DNA of 25,336 nt from a virus: positions 1 to 25,336 of IMG/VR virus record IMGVR_UViG_3300027906_000142; one strand, given 5' to 3'. The notes below the pieces were generated by a model. The model saw nothing but the letters and a program-made list of their open reading frames with translations, had not been told where the DNA came from and ran no database searches. Both the position numbers and the translations under genes were made by a program. Shown piece by piece: positions 9,186 to 22,443 of this stretch; position 1 is the stretch's first letter, and each line of letters starts with the position of its first letter.

Positions 9186-9213
9186 ACGCAACCAGTTGAT
9201 AAAGTGTCTACTC

Positions 9214-9246
9214 AAGACCTCTTCCCCACGGAAGGGGTCTTATACT
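9214..9246 (+). promoter_or_regulatory. Hairpin followed by TATACT -10 box before the VWA gene
   Basis: A 12-bp stem AAGACCTCTTCC/GGAAGGGGTCTT (9214-9225 with 9230-9241, one G-U pair) closes a CCAC loop. It is not followed by a T tract, so termination would be weak. TATACT (9241-9246) begins at the last base of the stem, and 9241-9258 nearly repeats 12707-12724. No good -35 hexamer is present at 16-18 bp. Confidence 0.5.
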
Positions 9247-9268
9247 ATGTACATACACGAGGAACCCA

Positions 9269-11428
9269 ATGAACTTAGTCAAGGAATCACTAGCAAAGTT
9301 ACTTGCCCAAGAGGACTTGATTGTAGAGCATCGTCAGGTTGAGACTGCACAGTTTGATGTAGATAACAGGGTACTTACTCTTCCTATCTGGAAGCACGAT
9401 GAGAACATTGTAATAGATTCTTTAATTGCCCATGAGGTTGGACATGCTCTCTTCACTCCTAATATAGATCCCCCAAGTGATATTCCACATCAGTTTGTTA
9501 ACATCACAGAGGATGTAAGAATTGAGAAGTTGATGAAGCGTAGATACGCTGGCATCCCTAAGACATTCTATGCTGGATATAAAATTCTTCATGATGAGGA
9601 TTTCTTCCAACTTGATGGTATCAATCTATGTGATCTTAATCTTGGAGATAGAATAAACTTACACTTTAAGATTGGTAACTATACTGATATTCCTTTCCAA
9701 GATGGAGAGCAAGTATATATTGATGAAGCAAATAAGATAGAGACTTTTGAAGATGCATGTGACCTTGCTAGAAAGATCCATGCATACTGTCAAGCAGAAG
9801 CAGAGAAGCAGCAGAAGGAAGAGGTAGAAGCAAAGGGTGTACAGCAAGAGTTAGATTTAGATGGTGGTGAAGGTCAAAATGAACAGGAGGAGAAGCCTGA
9901 AGCACCAGCACAACCAGAACCAAAGAATGAGGCACAGGATCATCTTGAAGATCATCTTGAGGAGCAAGAGAAGAACCAACCTAATCAAGCAGGTGGTAAT
10001 GAGGTAGGTCGCAATGATGGATCACCAGTAGAGACTAAAGTTAATTGTAAGACAGTAGACAGTCTTGATAAAGCATTGAGAAATATGGTTGATACTAATG
10101 GATCACCGATCACTTATATTGAACTTCCTAAGACAACAAATTCTATCGTACCATTTGATGAAACATATCAGATACTAGATAGTTTCTACACTGCAAAAGA
10201 AATTCTTGAGAAGCAGCAGGATTATTCTGATGAGTATGAGTTGCTGCTTGCTAGACAGTACACAAGAAATTTGAAGGAGATTGATGAAAAGTATAGAAAG
10301 TTCAAATCATCAAACGCTAAGGAAGTCAGTTACTTGGTTAAGGAGTTTGAGTGTAAGAAAGCAGCTGACGGTTATGCTCGTACTACTGTTAATCGCACTG
10401 GGGTTCTCGATACAACGAAGCTTCACACTTACAAATATAACGAAGATCTTTTCAGAAAAGTAAGTACTGTTGCTGATTCAAAGAACCATGGATTGATCTT
10501 TAATATAGATTGGTCAGGTTCTATGCACCATTCCATAGAAGCAACTATGAAGCAGGTACTTACATTAGTATCATTCTGTCGCAAGGTTGGTATTCAATAT
10601 GATGTTTATCTATTCAGTGATTCATTTGCACGACAAGAGCAACGTGTAGAACAGGATTGGGAACTAGAGAATAAAGTTCTTTGCAGAAACTTTAACATGG
10701 TTAATGTATTAACTAGTAGAAGTAACAATCGTCAGCATGATAGGCAAGCAAAGAATCTATTCCGTGTAGTAAATGCATTCCACTCTTACAATGCAGGTGC
10801 ACCATTTCAATTCTCATTAGGTGGAACTCCATTGAATGAAGCAATGGTTGCTATGAATGAAATCATTCCTCAGTTCAAGAAGAGAACAGGTGTTCAGAAA
10901 CTTCATGTTATTAACTTAACTGATGGTGAAGGATATCCTATTGGTTATGCTAAGAGAGTTAAGAAGTATCATGAGGATGGTGAGATGATAATCAATGGTA
11001 GAGTTGATCATAATACTGTTCTACGTGATCGTCAGACTGGTCATAATCATAAGTTCTGTAGTGAGTATGATATGACTGGAACATTCGTTGAGCAACTTAG
11101 AACTCGTTTCCCTGAGTGTGAGTTCATGAACATCCGTCTTATCGGTAAGAATGACTGGAGGATGTTTAAGCGTCAGTGCTTAGGTTCAGACTTTAATGCA
11201 TGGGAAACAGCAGATGCTGAGTGGAAGAAAACAAGATCTTTCATATGCACTAGTTCATATTACACAGTACAGTATGCACTTCATGTTGGTGCACTTGATA
11301 GTGAGACTGAGTTTGATGTTGATGAGGGTGCAAACAAGACCCAGATCAAGAGAGCATTTGCTAAGTCACTTAAGTCTAAGGCTATGAATAAGAAGATCTT
11401 ATCTTCATTCATTGAGAGAATAGCATGA
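9269..11428 (+). CDS. CobT-like VWA protein with N-terminal HEXXH zinc motif
   Basis: 719 residues. The N-terminal domain has a zinc-protease motif HEVGH (55-59) followed by 'EDVRIE' (81-86), a possible third-ligand region. Residues about 175-245 are an acidic Glu/Gln/Pro linker, including a 12-bp tandem repeat encoding DHLEDHLEE. The C-terminal part is a von Willebrand A domain with an intact metal site: DWSGS (from about 414), a Thr in 'GGTPLNEAM' (about 520) and 'TDGEG' (D about 552). Cyanophage copies are often labelled CobT because of the acidic linker plus VWA layout and the nearby CobS-like ATPase. A MoxR-VWA chaperone or peptidase role is equally plausible. Ribosome site AGGA, start ATG 9269. 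Confidence 0.8.
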   Translation: MNLVKESLAKLLAQEDLIVEHRQVETAQFDVDNRVLTLPIWKHDENIVIDSLIAHEVGHALFTPNIDPPSDIPHQFVNITEDVRIEKLMKRRYAGIPKTFYAGYKILHDEDFFQLDGINLCDLNLGDRINLHFKIGNYTDIPFQDGEQVYIDEANKIETFEDACDLARKIHAYCQAEAEKQQKEEVEAKGVQQELDLDGGEGQNEQEEKPEAPAQPEPKNEAQDHLEDHLEEQEKNQPNQAGGNEVGRNDGSPVETKVNCKTVDSLDKALRNMVDTNGSPITYIELPKTTNSIVPFDETYQILDSFYTAKEILEKQQDYSDEYELLLARQYTRNLKEIDEKYRKFKSSNAKEVSYLVKEFECKKAADGYARTTVNRTGVLDTTKLHTYKYNEDLFRKVSTVADSKNHGLIFNIDWSGSMHHSIEATMKQVLTLVSFCRKVGIQYDVYLFSDSFARQEQRVEQDWELENKVLCRNFNMVNVLTSRSNNRQHDRQAKNLFRVVNAFHSYNAGAPFQFSLGGTPLNEAMVAMNEIIPQFKKRTGVQKLHVINLTDGEGYPIGYAKRVKKYHEDGEMIINGRVDHNTVLRDRQTGHNHKFCSEYDMTGTFVEQLRTRFPECEFMNIRLIGKNDWRMFKRQCLGSDFNAWETADAEWKKTRSFICTSSYYTVQYALHVGALDSETEFDVDEGANKTQIKRAFAKSLKSKAMNKKILSSFIERIA

Positions 11429-11446
11429 TGTTAAGAGATCTTAACA
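11429..11446 (+). repeat. Inverted repeat, possible operator
   Basis: TGTTAAGAGATCTTAACA is an 8-bp perfect inverted repeat around GA, starting right after the VWA stop codon and ending six bases before the -35 box of the 11452 promoter. Its position suits an operator, and it could also act as an mRNA 3' hairpin. There is no T tract. Confidence 0.55.
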
Positions 11447-11451
11447 TTTAA

Positions 11452-11481
11452 TTGACATTGTATTGCCATTTGATATATACT
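11452..11481 (+). promoter_or_regulatory. Sigma-70 early promoter
   Basis: Consensus TTGACA (11452-11457) with TATATA after 16 bp (11474-11479) or TATACT after 18 bp (11476-11481). The surrounding ATTGACATTGT is identical to that before gp55. The expected start, near 11488, lies only about 11 bases before a terminator. Confidence 0.75.
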
Positions 11482-11498
11482 ATTGATTGAGGAAAACT

Positions 11499-11523
11499 GA
11501 AATCCTTACGGATTTCTTTTTTT
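11499..11523 (+). terminator. Intrinsic terminator just downstream of a promoter
   Basis: A 7-bp stem GAAATCC/GGATTTC (11499-11505 with 11510-11516) closes a TTAC loop and is followed by seven T residues (11517-11523). It would end both read-through from the VWA gene and most transcripts begun at the 11452 promoter. Confidence 0.88.
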
Positions 11524-11627
11524 CTACATCACTACGTTCCGTTAAGTCGTGCAACATCGATAGGAACGCTAAGAAGATACATTAACATCTTCACATTCGA
11601 TCCAATTCACACATAGGAGAATAGCTC

Positions 11628-12656
11628 ATGGCTACGCTAACTAAGCCGCTAACTGCGGTTGTCAATGTCTTATCTGTTGCAGCAAGCTTCATTGCAGATA
11701 GAATTATTCCACAAGGAATAAGAAAAGTATTTAAAAACGAAGGGGATAGTCCCTTCATTCCAGTTACATATATTCCACTTAGGGAACTGACAGTTGATCC
11801 TAAGTATCAGAGATTAATAAACCATACATTTATAAGGAAAGCTCAGGAGTTTAAACCTGAGTTTGTAAAGCCCCTATCAGTCTTTCAAAGACCTGATGGG
11901 ACTTCAGTTGTTGTTGATGGTCAACACACTTCAGTCCTTGCAGCGACTTACGTTCAAAATCCTGAAGAATTTAAACTACCTTGCCAGATTCAGTACCACC
12001 CAGATCATTTCACTATCGATCAGTGTGAGAAGGCAGAAGCAAAGTACTTCAAAGAGTTCAATACTCTTAGGAACAAAGTAACTTCAGTTGCTAAGTTGCG
12101 TGCTGACGTTGCTCAAGGTGCAGAGTATGCACTAGATCTTGAGGAGAAATTCAAGTCACTCAATATTCATGTTGAGCTTATTGGTGCTCCTGATGATGGT
12201 ACAAATGGTGTAATAGGTTATGATAAACTGAGAGTTGCTCTTGGTAAATATGGTACTACCTTTGTTAGAAGGGCAGTTGAAACATACAAGGGTCATAACA
12301 GAGACACTTCAAAAGTATGTAAGTGGTCTAAACCTCTTAACGGTGGTTTGATTTTTGGCCTTGCTGCAGCATATAGTTTCCTTGATAGTATCTCGGTTAC
12401 AAACACTGGTGCTAAGTATGAGAACTTTAATACGTTCCTTAATACTTCGATCAAAAATCGTCCTGTTGAGAAGTTTACTATTAACACCGCTGGTCCTATT
12501 CAAGACATCTTAATCCTTGAAAAATTTCTTGATGTATATGATGTATTGGCACCTGATAATGGTTGGGTTGGTATAGGTGATAAAACTTGGTCTGCCTGGA
12601 GAACTGATACAGGTATCCATGGTAAGTCTGCTGCCGAAGATTTGGACGAAGATTAG
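11628..12656 (+). CDS. ParB/sulfiredoxin-fold-like 'DGQH' protein
   Basis: 342 residues, function not established. After a hydrophobic N-terminus (about 7-24) comes 'IPLRELTVDPKYQRLINHTFIRKAQEFKPEFVKPLSVFQRPDGTSVVVDGQHTSVLAA' (about 50-105). That is the ParB/Srx-like pattern, with a DGQH box in place of the usual DGxHR. The rest is mostly helical, with 'GVIGYDKLRVALGKYGTTFVRRAVETY' and a C-terminal acidic tail. ParB-like domains bind DNA, hydrolyse CTP or act as nucleases; which applies here cannot be told. It lies between the VWA and AAA+ genes. The start is supported by AGGAG 9 bases upstream. Confidence 0.7.
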   Translation: MATLTKPLTAVVNVLSVAASFIADRIIPQGIRKVFKNEGDSPFIPVTYIPLRELTVDPKYQRLINHTFIRKAQEFKPEFVKPLSVFQRPDGTSVVVDGQHTSVLAATYVQNPEEFKLPCQIQYHPDHFTIDQCEKAEAKYFKEFNTLRNKVTSVAKLRADVAQGAEYALDLEEKFKSLNIHVELIGAPDDGTNGVIGYDKLRVALGKYGTTFVRRAVETYKGHNRDTSKVCKWSKPLNGGLIFGLAAAYSFLDSISVTNTGAKYENFNTFLNTSIKNRPVEKFTINTAGPIQDILILEKFLDVYDVLAPDNGWVGIGDKTWSAWRTDTGIHGKSAAEDLDED

Positions 12657-12678
12657 ACCAACCAACAAACTGTCACAC

Positions 12679-12712
12679 ACCCCCTTAACAGGGGGTTTTT
12701 TATTGCTATACT
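12679..12712 (+). terminator. Terminator with a nested promoter
   Basis: CCCCC/GGGGG (12680-12684 with 12691-12695) plus one A-T pair closes the loop TTAACA and runs into six T residues (12696-12701): a strong terminator for the ParB-like gene. The loop TTAACA (12685-12690) is also a one-mismatch -35 box, 16 bp from TATACT (12707-12712), giving a promoter for the AAA+ gene at 12741. The two functions share the same bases. Confidence 0.8.
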
Positions 12713-12740
12713 ACGTACATACACAAAAACATTTATCATT

Positions 12741-13805
12741 ATGCCTTTCGAGAGAAAACTATCAGTCAACTTCGTTGATGAAATTCGTGAAGAATTTGGT
12801 AATGAGATAGATGCCTCTCATGTAAAGAAGTTTGCAACTGCTCAGGGTGTAGCATATCCCACAGTGGCACGTAAGTTAAAAGAGTATCAGGTTAAGCGTG
12901 GATCATGGAACCTTACTGTACAAGAAGGACGTGAGATCTTAGAGAAGTCAATTGCTCAACCAACTGTTCTACCTAACGTGGAGCAGAATTTAGTTCCAGC
13001 ACTGGATTCTACTTTCATCAAGTTTGGAAACTTCAATGATGTTAAGAAGATAATTCAGTCTAACTTATTCTATCCTACTTTCATTACTGGATTATCAGGT
13101 AACGGTAAGACCTTCTCTGTAGAGCAAGCATGTGCTCAAGCAAAGAGAGAATTGATCCGAGTAAACATTACTATCGAAACTGATGAAGATGATCTCATTG
13201 GCGGCTTCCGTCTTGTTGACGGCGCAACCGTATGGCACAACGGACCTGTTGTGGAAGCTCTCCAGCGAGGAGCTATCTTGCTCCTTGACGAGATCGACCT
13301 TGCCTCAAACAAAATCCTCTGTCTCCAGTCAATCCTTGAAGGTAAAGGAGTTTTCCTTAAGAAGATTGGAAAGTACATCAGACCAACAGCAGGGTTCAAC
13401 GTCATCGCTACCGCAAACACTAAAGGTAAAGGTTCAGACGACGGACGTTTTGTTGGAACTAACGTGCTTAATGAAGCCTTCCTTGAGCGATTCCCAGTAA
13501 CCTTTGAGCAAGAGTATCCAACACCTGCTAATGAGATTAAGATCCTTGATGCTGTATGTACTGAGACTGATTTCAATAAGAGGTTAGTAGACTGGGCAGA
13601 CATCATCCGTAAGACTTTCTTTGATGGTGGTATAGATGAGGTTATTAGTACTCGTCGTTTGGTGCACATCGTTAAAGCATATAGTATCTTTGGTACTCGT
13701 GCTAAGGCAATCACCACTTGCATCAACCGTTTTGATGATGAAACTAAGCAAGCGTTTCAGGAATTATACGACAAGGTTGACGCGGACGTGGACTTTGAGG
13801 TATAA
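12741..13805 (+). CDS. cobS: MoxR/CobS-like AAA+ ATPase
   Basis: 354 residues, the protein usually called CobS in cyanophages. Walker A is GLSGNGKT (117-124) and Walker B LLLDEID (180-186). Sensor 1 lies in 'NVIATANT' and an arginine-finger region in 'NEAFLERFPVTFE'. Residues about 27-50 ('VKKFATAQGVAYPTVARKLKEY') look like a helix-turn-helix, which bacterial CobS would not need. In bacteria CobS and CobT form the ATPase of cobaltochelatase. Without a visible CobN-like subunit, a general AAA+/VWA remodelling role is just as likely. The middle (about 13190-13460) uses more C/G-ending codons than its flanks. Confidence 0.88.
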   Translation: MPFERKLSVNFVDEIREEFGNEIDASHVKKFATAQGVAYPTVARKLKEYQVKRGSWNLTVQEGREILEKSIAQPTVLPNVEQNLVPALDSTFIKFGNFNDVKKIIQSNLFYPTFITGLSGNGKTFSVEQACAQAKRELIRVNITIETDEDDLIGGFRLVDGATVWHNGPVVEALQRGAILLLDEIDLASNKILCLQSILEGKGVFLKKIGKYIRPTAGFNVIATANTKGKGSDDGRFVGTNVLNEAFLERFPVTFEQEYPTPANEIKILDAVCTETDFNKRLVDWADIIRKTFFDGGIDEVISTRRLVHIVKAYSIFGTRAKAITTCINRFDDETKQAFQELYDKVDADVDFEV

Positions 13806-19830: not shown

Positions 19831-19960
19831 TGGTACACTAGAGCCATGGCCCAGTTGGACAACTGACACAGACGTATTGATTTATTCCGAAACTCTTGCT
19901 ACAATAGTAGAACCTACGGAGACTATCCGTAATAAGTACGACTTAGTTACTAAAGAATGA
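19718..19960 (+). CDS. Small beta-rich protein, paralog D, starting inside paralog C
   Basis: 80 residues from ATG 19718, preceded at six bases by GGAGG (19707-19711); ATGs at 19712 and 19727 are alternatives. The protein is a compact, complete family member. 'VVILRSGIHLISQVEQLEEEP' matches 'LLLLKSGEEIITEVKEITDPD' of C. 'HPYLI' matches the KPF strand, 'LEPWPSWTTDTDVLIYSETLATIVEPTETIRNKYDL' matches the PWAPLSKDRDFYLPGHHVLTAYDPLDAITEQYL segment. Its first 113 bases lie out of frame inside C, and its stop overlaps the gp43 start (ATGA). The family match in this frame is strong evidence that it is a real gene. Confidence 0.78.
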   Translation: MEVMVVILRSGIHLISQVEQLEEEPNCHLQHPYLIKDDGTLEPWPSWTTDTDVLIYSETLATIVEPTETIRNKYDLVTKE

Positions 19961-22443
19961 GTTTCTATACAAATGTTCAGATGGTCGGGGATAACCTGCT
20001 TTATCTTGGATACGAGAACGGACAACGTATTCAGAGAAAGTTCAAGTTCTCTCCGACCCTTTTTGTCGTTACTGATAAGAAGACTAAACATAGGACACTT
20101 GATGGTAGATACGCAAAGCCTATCAAGTTTGAATCAATAAGAGAAGCTAGGGCATTTAGAGACAAGTACAAAGACATAGACAATTTTGAGGTGCATGGGT
20201 ATGACAGATATCTCTACCAATTCATATCAAAAGAGTTTCCAGCAGAAGTTGACTATGACCTTAAGAGTCTTAAGGTTACATCTCTTGATATCGAGGTGGC
20301 ATGTGAAAATGGCTTTCCTAACGTGCAGGAATGCGCGGAACCTCTTCTCAGCATTACAGTCCAAGACTATATCAGCCGTAAGATCAAAGTATGGGGTACC
20401 AAACCTTATAGGACGGATCGCAAGGACGTTGAATATATCTTATGTGACAGCGAGGAACATTTGCTCCGTGGTTTTCTTCACTATTGGACTACTAATTTCC
20501 CAGATATTCTCACGGGGTGGAATGTAGAACTGTATGACGTACCATATATCTGTGGACGTATGGAACGGTTGTTTGGTGAGAAGGAGATGAAGCAGATGTC
20601 TCCATGGGGCATTGTTCATCGTGAAGAGATGGAGATCAAAGGTCGCCAACAGATTATATACAACATGTTTGGTATCAATGTGGTAGACTATCTTGACTTG
20701 TATAAGAAGTTTACTTATACCAATCAAGAATCATATAGGTTAGACCATATTGCCTTTGTTGAACTAGGAGAGAAGAAGTTAGACCACAGTGAGTTTGAAA
20801 ACTTCAAAGATTTCTACACGAAGGACTGGCAGAAGTTCATTGATTACAACATCAAGGACGTGGAACTGGTAGTTCGTCTTGAAGATAAGATGAAGTTAAT
20901 AGAACTTGCTATTGCTCTAGCATATGATGCTAAAGTCAACATAAGAGATGTGTATTTTCAAGTACGCATGTGGGATACTATCATATATAATTTTCTAAAG
21001 AACAAAAATCTTGTTGTACCACCAGCAAAACGATCAGACAAAAACGAGAAGTATGAAGGTGCTTATGTCAAGGAACCGAAACCAGGACGCTATGATTGGG
21101 TTGTTAATTTTGACCTCAATAGCCTTTATCCTCACCTTATTATGCAGTACAATATCTCACCAGAAACCCTCTGGGAGACTAGACATGCCAGCGCGAGCGT
21201 TGAAAGGCTTTTAAAGAAAGAGGTTGTTATTGATGGTGAGTTTTGTGTAGCACCTAATGGTGCACAGTACAGGAAGGACATCCATGGATTCCTTCCAGAA
21301 ATAATGCAGAAGATCTATGATGAACGCACGTTATATAAGAAAAAAATGCTTCAGGCAAAGAGGGATTATGAAAAAAGTCCCACTGCTCAGCTACAAAAGG
21401 ATATTAGTAAATTCAATAACATCCAAATGGCTCGAAAGATCCAACTCAATTCAGCTTATGGTGCCATCGGAAATCAGTACTTTAGATATTACAACCTACG
21501 CAATGCTGAGGCGATTACTTACGGTGGGCAGTTTAGCATCCGTTGGATTGAAAACAAAGTAAACGAGTATCTTAATAGAGTATTAAAAACAGAGGAGGTT
21601 GATTATGTTATTGCTTCAGATACTGATTCCATTTATCTTAATATGGGGCCTTTGGTCGAAACTGTATACAAGGGGAGAGAGAAAACTGATGAAAGCGTTG
21701 TCACGTTCCTTGATAAGGTCTGTGAGGTGGAACTTGAACCTTATATTGAAAGTTGCTACCAAGAACTGGCCGACTACGTAAACGCATACGATCAGAAGAT
21801 GTTCATGAAGCGTGAGAACATTGCTTCTAGTGGTATATGGACTGCTAAGAAGAGATATATTCTTAACGTATGGGACAGTGAGGGTGTCAGATATAATGAA
21901 CCTAAACTTAAGATCATGGGTCTAGAGGCAGTGAAGTCTTCTACTCCTATGCCATGTCGTACTGCTATTAAAAAAGCACTAAAGCTCATGGTGACGGGTA
22001 CAGAAGACGAACTTATTTCCTTTATAGATACCTTCAGGAATGAGTTTGACTCATTACCACCTGAAGACATAGCATTTCCGAGGTCAGTCAATGGCTTACG
22101 CAAATTCAAAGCGTCAGGAACCGTGTATTCAAAGGGATGCCCTCTACATGTTCGTGGAACTTTGCTTTATAATTTTTATATCGCAAAAAACAAACTCGAA
22201 TTCAAATATCCGTTAGTTCAAGAGGGTGAGAAGATCAAGTATCTGTACTTAAGAGTTCCAAACAAAATGAATGAGAACGTTATCTCTTTCCTTAACACCT
22301 TCCCTAGGGAGTTGGACTTGGAGAAGAGTATAGATCGTGATGCCCAATTTAAAAAATCTTTTCTTGACCCTTTACGAATCATCACAAACGTGATAGGATG
22401 GGAAACGGAGAGAGTATCTAACCTTGAATTTTTATTTGCATGA
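19957..22443 (+). CDS. 43: DNA polymerase gp43 (family B)
   Basis: 828 residues (T4 gp43 898). It replicates phage DNA with proofreading, tethered by gp45. The exonuclease is intact: Exo I DIE (111-113) in '[12 protein letters not shown]', Exo II '[15 protein letters not shown]', Exo III '[12 protein letters not shown]'. Polymerase motif A is '[12 protein letters not shown]' (D386), motif B '[13 protein letters not shown]', and motif C DTDS (555-558). Motif A has His where many relatives have Ser (SLYPH). No intein or split is present. T4 gp43 represses its own mRNA; here the start lies within paralog D, so any such operator would be inside coding sequence. Confidence 0.98.

Follow-up and report, generated by a model that had tools for sequence, protein, structure and literature searches.

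Two near-identical 18-mers before a VWA 'peptidase' gene and a cobS-like AAA+ gene as probable members of a genome-wide promoter class of T4-like cyanophages

We find that two 18-nt segments differing at a single base, one upstream of a VWA 'peptidase' gene and the other upstream of a cobS-like AAA+ gene, are likely the -10/start-site halves of two members of a promoter class that is distributed genome-wide in T4-like cyanophages and is probably early. Each member carries an imperfect palindrome (approximately GNCAGTTnnnnAACTGNCACA) whose centre lies near -53. There is no conserved -35, and the -10, TATAAT, begins 50±1 nt after the first base of the palindrome; the predicted start is usually a CA in a short tail rich in A and C. 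Where the promoter lies between genes, the gap usually also houses a hairpin able to terminate the preceding transcript, and the spacing is unchanged.

The stretch analysed, hereafter the window, is a 25,336-base viral fragment that makes up its entire IMG/VR record. Its gene set is of the T4-like cyanophage type and comprises a tail-tube-related protein, a UvsW-like helicase, gp55, gp47, gp46, the VWA 'peptidase', the cobS-like AAA+ protein, gp45, gp44, a DNA adenine methylase, gp43, UvsX and gp41, and the best named match is to the Prochlorococcus MED4 phages P-HM1 and P-HM2, which align to half of the query at ~70% nucleotide identity. In the window the VWA and cobS genes are separated by a phrog_2558 gene, which is missing between them in both P-HM1 and P-HM2 (Table 1). 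The interval between VWA and this intervening gene also holds, at 11452–11524, a near-consensus promoter (TTGACA-18-TATACT, 11/12) that is followed within ~20 nt by a hairpin resembling a terminator, its U-run being long, and lies ~100 nt before the ParB-like gene; its predicted transcript would be ~40 nt long.

Table 1. Coordinates of the two promoters and the adjoining genes in the window
Feature	Positions	Strand	Basis
P (upstream palindromic) element of the VWA promoter, ACCAGTTGATAAAGTGTCTAC	9191–9211	+	PWM match, 50 nt before -10
Hairpin with 12-bp stem, between P element and -10 of VWA	9214–9241	+	RNA fold
VWA -10 box TATACT (9241–9246), discriminator, predicted start A9253 and first transcribed bases	9241–9258	+	
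VWA protein (phrog_459 'peptidase') containing the motifs HEVGH and DWSGS	9269–11428	+	
Intervening gene, phrog_2558, weakly ParB-like/DUF6551	11628–12656	+	
P (upstream palindromic) element at cobS, ACCAACCAACAAACTGTCACA	12657–12677	+	PWM match, 50 nt before -10
Terminator-like hairpin, then TTTTTT	12679–12696	+	
cobS -10 box TATACT (12707–12712), discriminator, predicted start A12719 and first transcribed bases	12707–12724	+	
CobS-like MoxR-type AAA+ ATPase, phrog_249, AAA_5 plus CbbQ_C	12741–13805	+	

The preliminary description had reported the two 18-mers (TATACTATGTACATACAC before VWA and TATACTACGTACATACAC before cobS) as differing at one base and lying about 30 bases before their genes, and both the coordinates and the single difference agree with the letters of the window, the distance from 18-mer start to ATG being 28 nt for VWA and 34 nt for cobS. 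It had further proposed a search for additional copies: within the window no third copy is found at up to three mismatches, and in related phages the segment is kept before both VWA and cobS. Shuffles of the window give a chance expectation of 0.16 matches to the given 18-mer at that tolerance. For any 18-mer pair with at most one mismatch, order-1 Markov simulations give 0.93 expected pairs per window and at least one pair in 29 of 60 simulated windows, and the window itself holds a second such pair, at 21294/23396. Since ~0.9 pairs are thus expected by chance, the repeat by itself is weak evidence and not significant; the weight of the case, as we read the comparisons, rests on position and conservation.

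In relatives, the 18-mer site forms the 3′ portion of a promoter with three parts: the GNCAGTTnnnnAACTGNCACA-like palindrome, the TATAAT box and a start-site tail of about nGTnCATAC. We collected the sequences upstream of cobS at 80 loci, together with those at the loci carrying the 18-mer, located the palindrome and the -10 independently, and found both in 137 of 139 distinct regions (cobS 84/86, VWA 53/53). The -10 lies 50±1 nt downstream of the palindrome in 130 of these 137, with the palindrome starting 49–51 nt before it in 78 cobS and 52 VWA regions. A stable hairpin occupies the gap in 117 of 132 regions; 12 others have no hairpin or a very weak one, the spacing remaining unchanged, and a -35-like TTG is present in only 7 of the 132. 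Base counts of the aligned promoters give a TATANT box, a -1 position that is usually C, and a purine at +1 in 130/131. The 18-mer is thereby placed at about -12 to +6, where it covers a discriminator as well as the -10 box and likely start of its earlier description. P-HM1 and P-HM2 keep the promoter layout but not the 18-mer itself. Among contigs of the window's lineage, the VWA copies vary at a few positions and retain GTACATACA; the perfect conservation of the 18-mer before cobS in the same lineage is subject to ascertainment bias, because that set was gathered partly by means of the 18-mer.

Both window sites conform to this layout, each having a GNCAGTTnnnnAACTGNCACA-like palindrome (ACCAGTTGATAAAGTGTC from 9191, ACCAACCAACAAACTGTC from 12657) that starts exactly 50 nt upstream of a TATAAT-like -10 (TATACT), and a purine 7 nt after the -10 as the predicted start. 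The shared palindrome contradicts the initial impression that the flanks differ outside the 18-mers. The P-element PWM scores are 23.1 for VWA and 19.0 for cobS, the latter being a weaker copy (ACCAACCAAC...). Each 18-mer had also been said to follow a hairpin directly, which is accurate for the first copy but not for the second, where the hairpin ends 10 nt before the 18-mer. RNA folding of 9187–9245 gives -21.1 kcal/mol (z -4.0), and the 3′ foot of the VWA hairpin overlaps the first T of the VWA -10; as this hairpin has no U-run, it would act as a weak terminator at best. Several other candidate signals were discarded: an NtcA box (GTA-N8-TAC) in the 18-mer has the wrong spacing by inspection; a T4 late promoter would require TATAAATA rather than TATACT; TATGTACATA, considered as an operator palindrome, loses its symmetry at cobS (TACGTACATA) and also in the majority of relatives; and a possible further class member upstream of gp43, at 19850, was taken as chance, since P-HM1/P-HM2 do not keep its palindrome in the same place and the stretch looks coding.

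The same architecture recurs throughout T4-like cyanophage genomes. The spacing and the PWM were derived from the VWA and cobS regions, and the genome scans are independent of those regions; on the forward strand we obtained 13 PWM matches in Syn9, 9 in P-HM1, 19 in S-SSM7, 38 in ACG-2014f, 15 in P-TIM40, 19 in P-SSM2 and 15 in the parts of S-PM2 scanned, that is, ~9–38 copies per genome, as against 0–1 in shuffled sequence at the same threshold. The spacings of these matches peak at 50 and 51. The copies stand mostly before small early-type ORFs, clustering where small ORFs are grouped and near VWA and cobS, and the PWM scan of Syn9 detected no class site in the stretches of annotated virion genes at 3–43 kb and 58–119 kb. 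Across viral contigs, the exact three-part pattern is found at 52 sites, 9 before VWA, 6 before cobS and 37 before other genes. Some of these last sites match the 18-mer at 16 positions, one example being TATAATAAGTACATACAC, upstream of an ORF of 83 aa on contig L231. In ACG-2014f, TATACTATATTCATAC occurs 13 times between 40 and 56 kb, and the start-site tail is therefore a class feature as well. A search of 84,980 prokaryote genomes (257 billion bases) with the strict spaced pattern returned 13 contigs, against a rough chance estimate of 20, and none of the 13 is picocyanobacterial. On the outcome of this strict scan we reject a host origin of the element, and the scarcity of such matches hints against a host regulator with the usual targets on the chromosome as the cognate factor.

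We propose that host RNA polymerase carrying its main sigma factor would contact the -10 and that, with no -35 available, it would be recruited or stabilised by a DNA-binding protein seated on the palindrome at a fixed distance. That the spacing is fixed regardless of the hairpin points to a contact on DNA rather than a signal in RNA. An RNA-level role, in which palindrome, hairpin and tail would serve as a terminator, processing site or leader element in the transcript, could draw on the usual position of the palindrome after a stop codon and of the hairpin after the palindrome; it appears very unlikely, as an RNA role would not need the distance between palindrome and -10 that is held even where there is no hairpin, and the hairpin sequence varies freely while the P element and the -10 stay. 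Less likely still, to the point of being hardly credible, is a chance repeat of A/T-rich promoter-like letters. The number of such pairs expected per window would allow it, as would the presence of the 18-mer in the canonical -35/-10 promoter of an unrelated phage and once inside an ORF, but many relatives conserve the segment upstream of both genes, at homologous positions, and a second conserved element lies at a fixed distance from it, which contradicts chance. Under the preferred reading of a genome-wide promoter class, gene position suggests early timing, and the timing of VWA and cobS would be that of the whole class rather than the product of private co-regulation. The activator would then have to act at or soon after injection, and the factor on the palindrome may be phage-specific. 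The class also offers a compact and testable description of an early-type T4-like cyanophage promoter: a palindrome, rigid 50-nt spacing, no -35 and a nested terminator.

A further alternative is the one originally put forward, namely that the module is specific to the VWA and cobS genes, marks them as a pair and matches expression of the AAA+ subunit to that of the VWA subunit. In its favour, an IMG/VR scan of 2.9 million viral contigs gave 37 exact 18-mer sites on 33 contigs, 34 of them immediately ahead of the start of VWA or cobS; the remaining sites are in a different phage (L007), in which the same 18 letters lie inside a canonical TTGACA-17-TATACT promoter, and in one sequence present in two copies (L009/L022), where the match falls within a reverse-strand ORF. 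Moreover, the 12-letter tails of VWA and cobS covary within genomes, agreeing at 6.43 positions compared with 5.58±0.17 when shuffled across genomes (5.93 compared with 5.16 without the GTACATAC lineage), in a permutation test that is inflated by shared ancestry, and the S-SSM7 pair agrees at 11/12 positions while neither tail exceeds 8 with any other class promoter. Against it, each T4-like cyanophage genome scanned has the same three-part promoter upstream of numerous small genes unrelated to the pair, the two tails differ in many relatives, and in ACG-2014f, P-SSM2, Syn9 and P-TIM40 no outstanding agreement of the VWA/cobS pair was seen. The preliminary description had named occurrence at many unrelated sites as the finding that would overturn it, and this is the case for the module but not for the exact 18 letters. 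We therefore consider pair specificity improbable. A weaker claim survives, in that the VWA and cobS tails of one genome are more alike than expected, and the sequences make a VWA/cobS promoter sub-type possible in some lineages, the window's included. Another scenario, which we deem rather unlikely although less so than pair specificity, would combine a -35-independent, phage-specific promoter type (palindrome near -53, rigid 50 nt), served by an unnamed and perhaps virion-borne factor, with co-evolution of the VWA and cobS tails in each genome that tunes both subunits together.

Doron et al. 2016 (ISME J 10:1437) reportedly described, in work on Syn9 and P-TIM40, a novel element controlling the early genes of Syn9 and conserved among T4-like cyanophages. 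Members of the present palindrome/-10 class occur in both phages, for the most part where small ORFs are grouped. The two may well be the same class, in which case the VWA and cobS promoters would be new members of one that is probably already known. The TATAAT -10, the purine start and the upstream palindrome at fixed spacing resemble bacterial sigma-70 promoters with an upstream activator of the class I/II type, from which the phage sites differ in having a palindrome centred near -53 and no conserved -35. CRP-type sites are usually centred at -41.5 or -61.5. The early, middle (MotA) and late (TATAAATA) promoters of T4 belong to the same phage family and likewise have a role in a temporal programme, although the class -10 is not the late-promoter TATAAATA. 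Cyanomyoviruses lack motA, asiA and alt/mod genes, and in S-PM2 and Syn9 sigma-70-like motifs are reported for homologues of early genes (PMC2984593). The main texts of PMC5082946 and PMC7238727 give no timing for VWA or cobS.

The earlier suggestion of a functional AAA+/VWA pair is plausible on family grounds, to which the shared promoter adds little: it does not prove such a partnership, and the partnership does not depend on it. Among solved structures, the AAA+ protein is closest in sequence to Midasin, CobS and NorQ. Its score against the CobS equivalog TIGR01650 is 71.8 bits, far below the cut-off of 558.55, and the label 'cobalt chelatase subunit' is thus unsupported here. Likewise, the common annotation 'cobS, porphyrin/cobalamin biosynthesis' for this gene rests on weak similarity, Midasin AAA+ modules being the closest of the solved structures. 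In the VWA protein, the HExxH histidines and glutamate and the DWSGS motif are invariant across 28 diverse homologues. Searches of Pfam and NCBIfam gave no match to it, and a family profile search against solved sequences gave nothing at E ≤1; its AlphaFold model (mean pLDDT 75.9) matches the MDN1 MIDAS domain at E 9e-5 and, at E 2e-4, the VWA domain of NorD from a NorQ-NorD complex, among other VWA domains. The two proteins thereby show the features of a MoxR-type pair, an AAA_5/CbbQ_C ATPase beside a VWA protein with a DWSGS MIDAS motif and a MIDAS-domain fold match, and these family and model matches make a MoxR-type partnership plausible and likely. Known systems of this type include CobS-CobT, NorQ-NorD and Midasin, from which the phage VWA protein is set apart by its HEVGH motif. 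Through its promoter class, this conserved and unexplained pair is grouped with small early-type genes rather than with virion genes.

Further observations were made on individual contigs. In ACG-2014f (KJ019103), the region at 28–56 kb contains ~30 near-identical class promoters, many of which have one of two tails, either TATACTATATTCATACC or TATACTAAACACATACC, a pattern that resembles homogenisation inside this genome. A different phage, G002 (L131, L132), carries on the minus strand at 32–40 kb promoters of the form TTGACA-17-TATAAT with tails like ACATACAC; they include the exact 18-mer and have similar start-site tails without the palindrome. Finally, two contigs from the Flavobacteriales metagenome bin TMED113 (L211 and L218; NHFO01000063 and NHFO01000061) bear two class promoters each and are thus probably misbinned cyanophage DNA.
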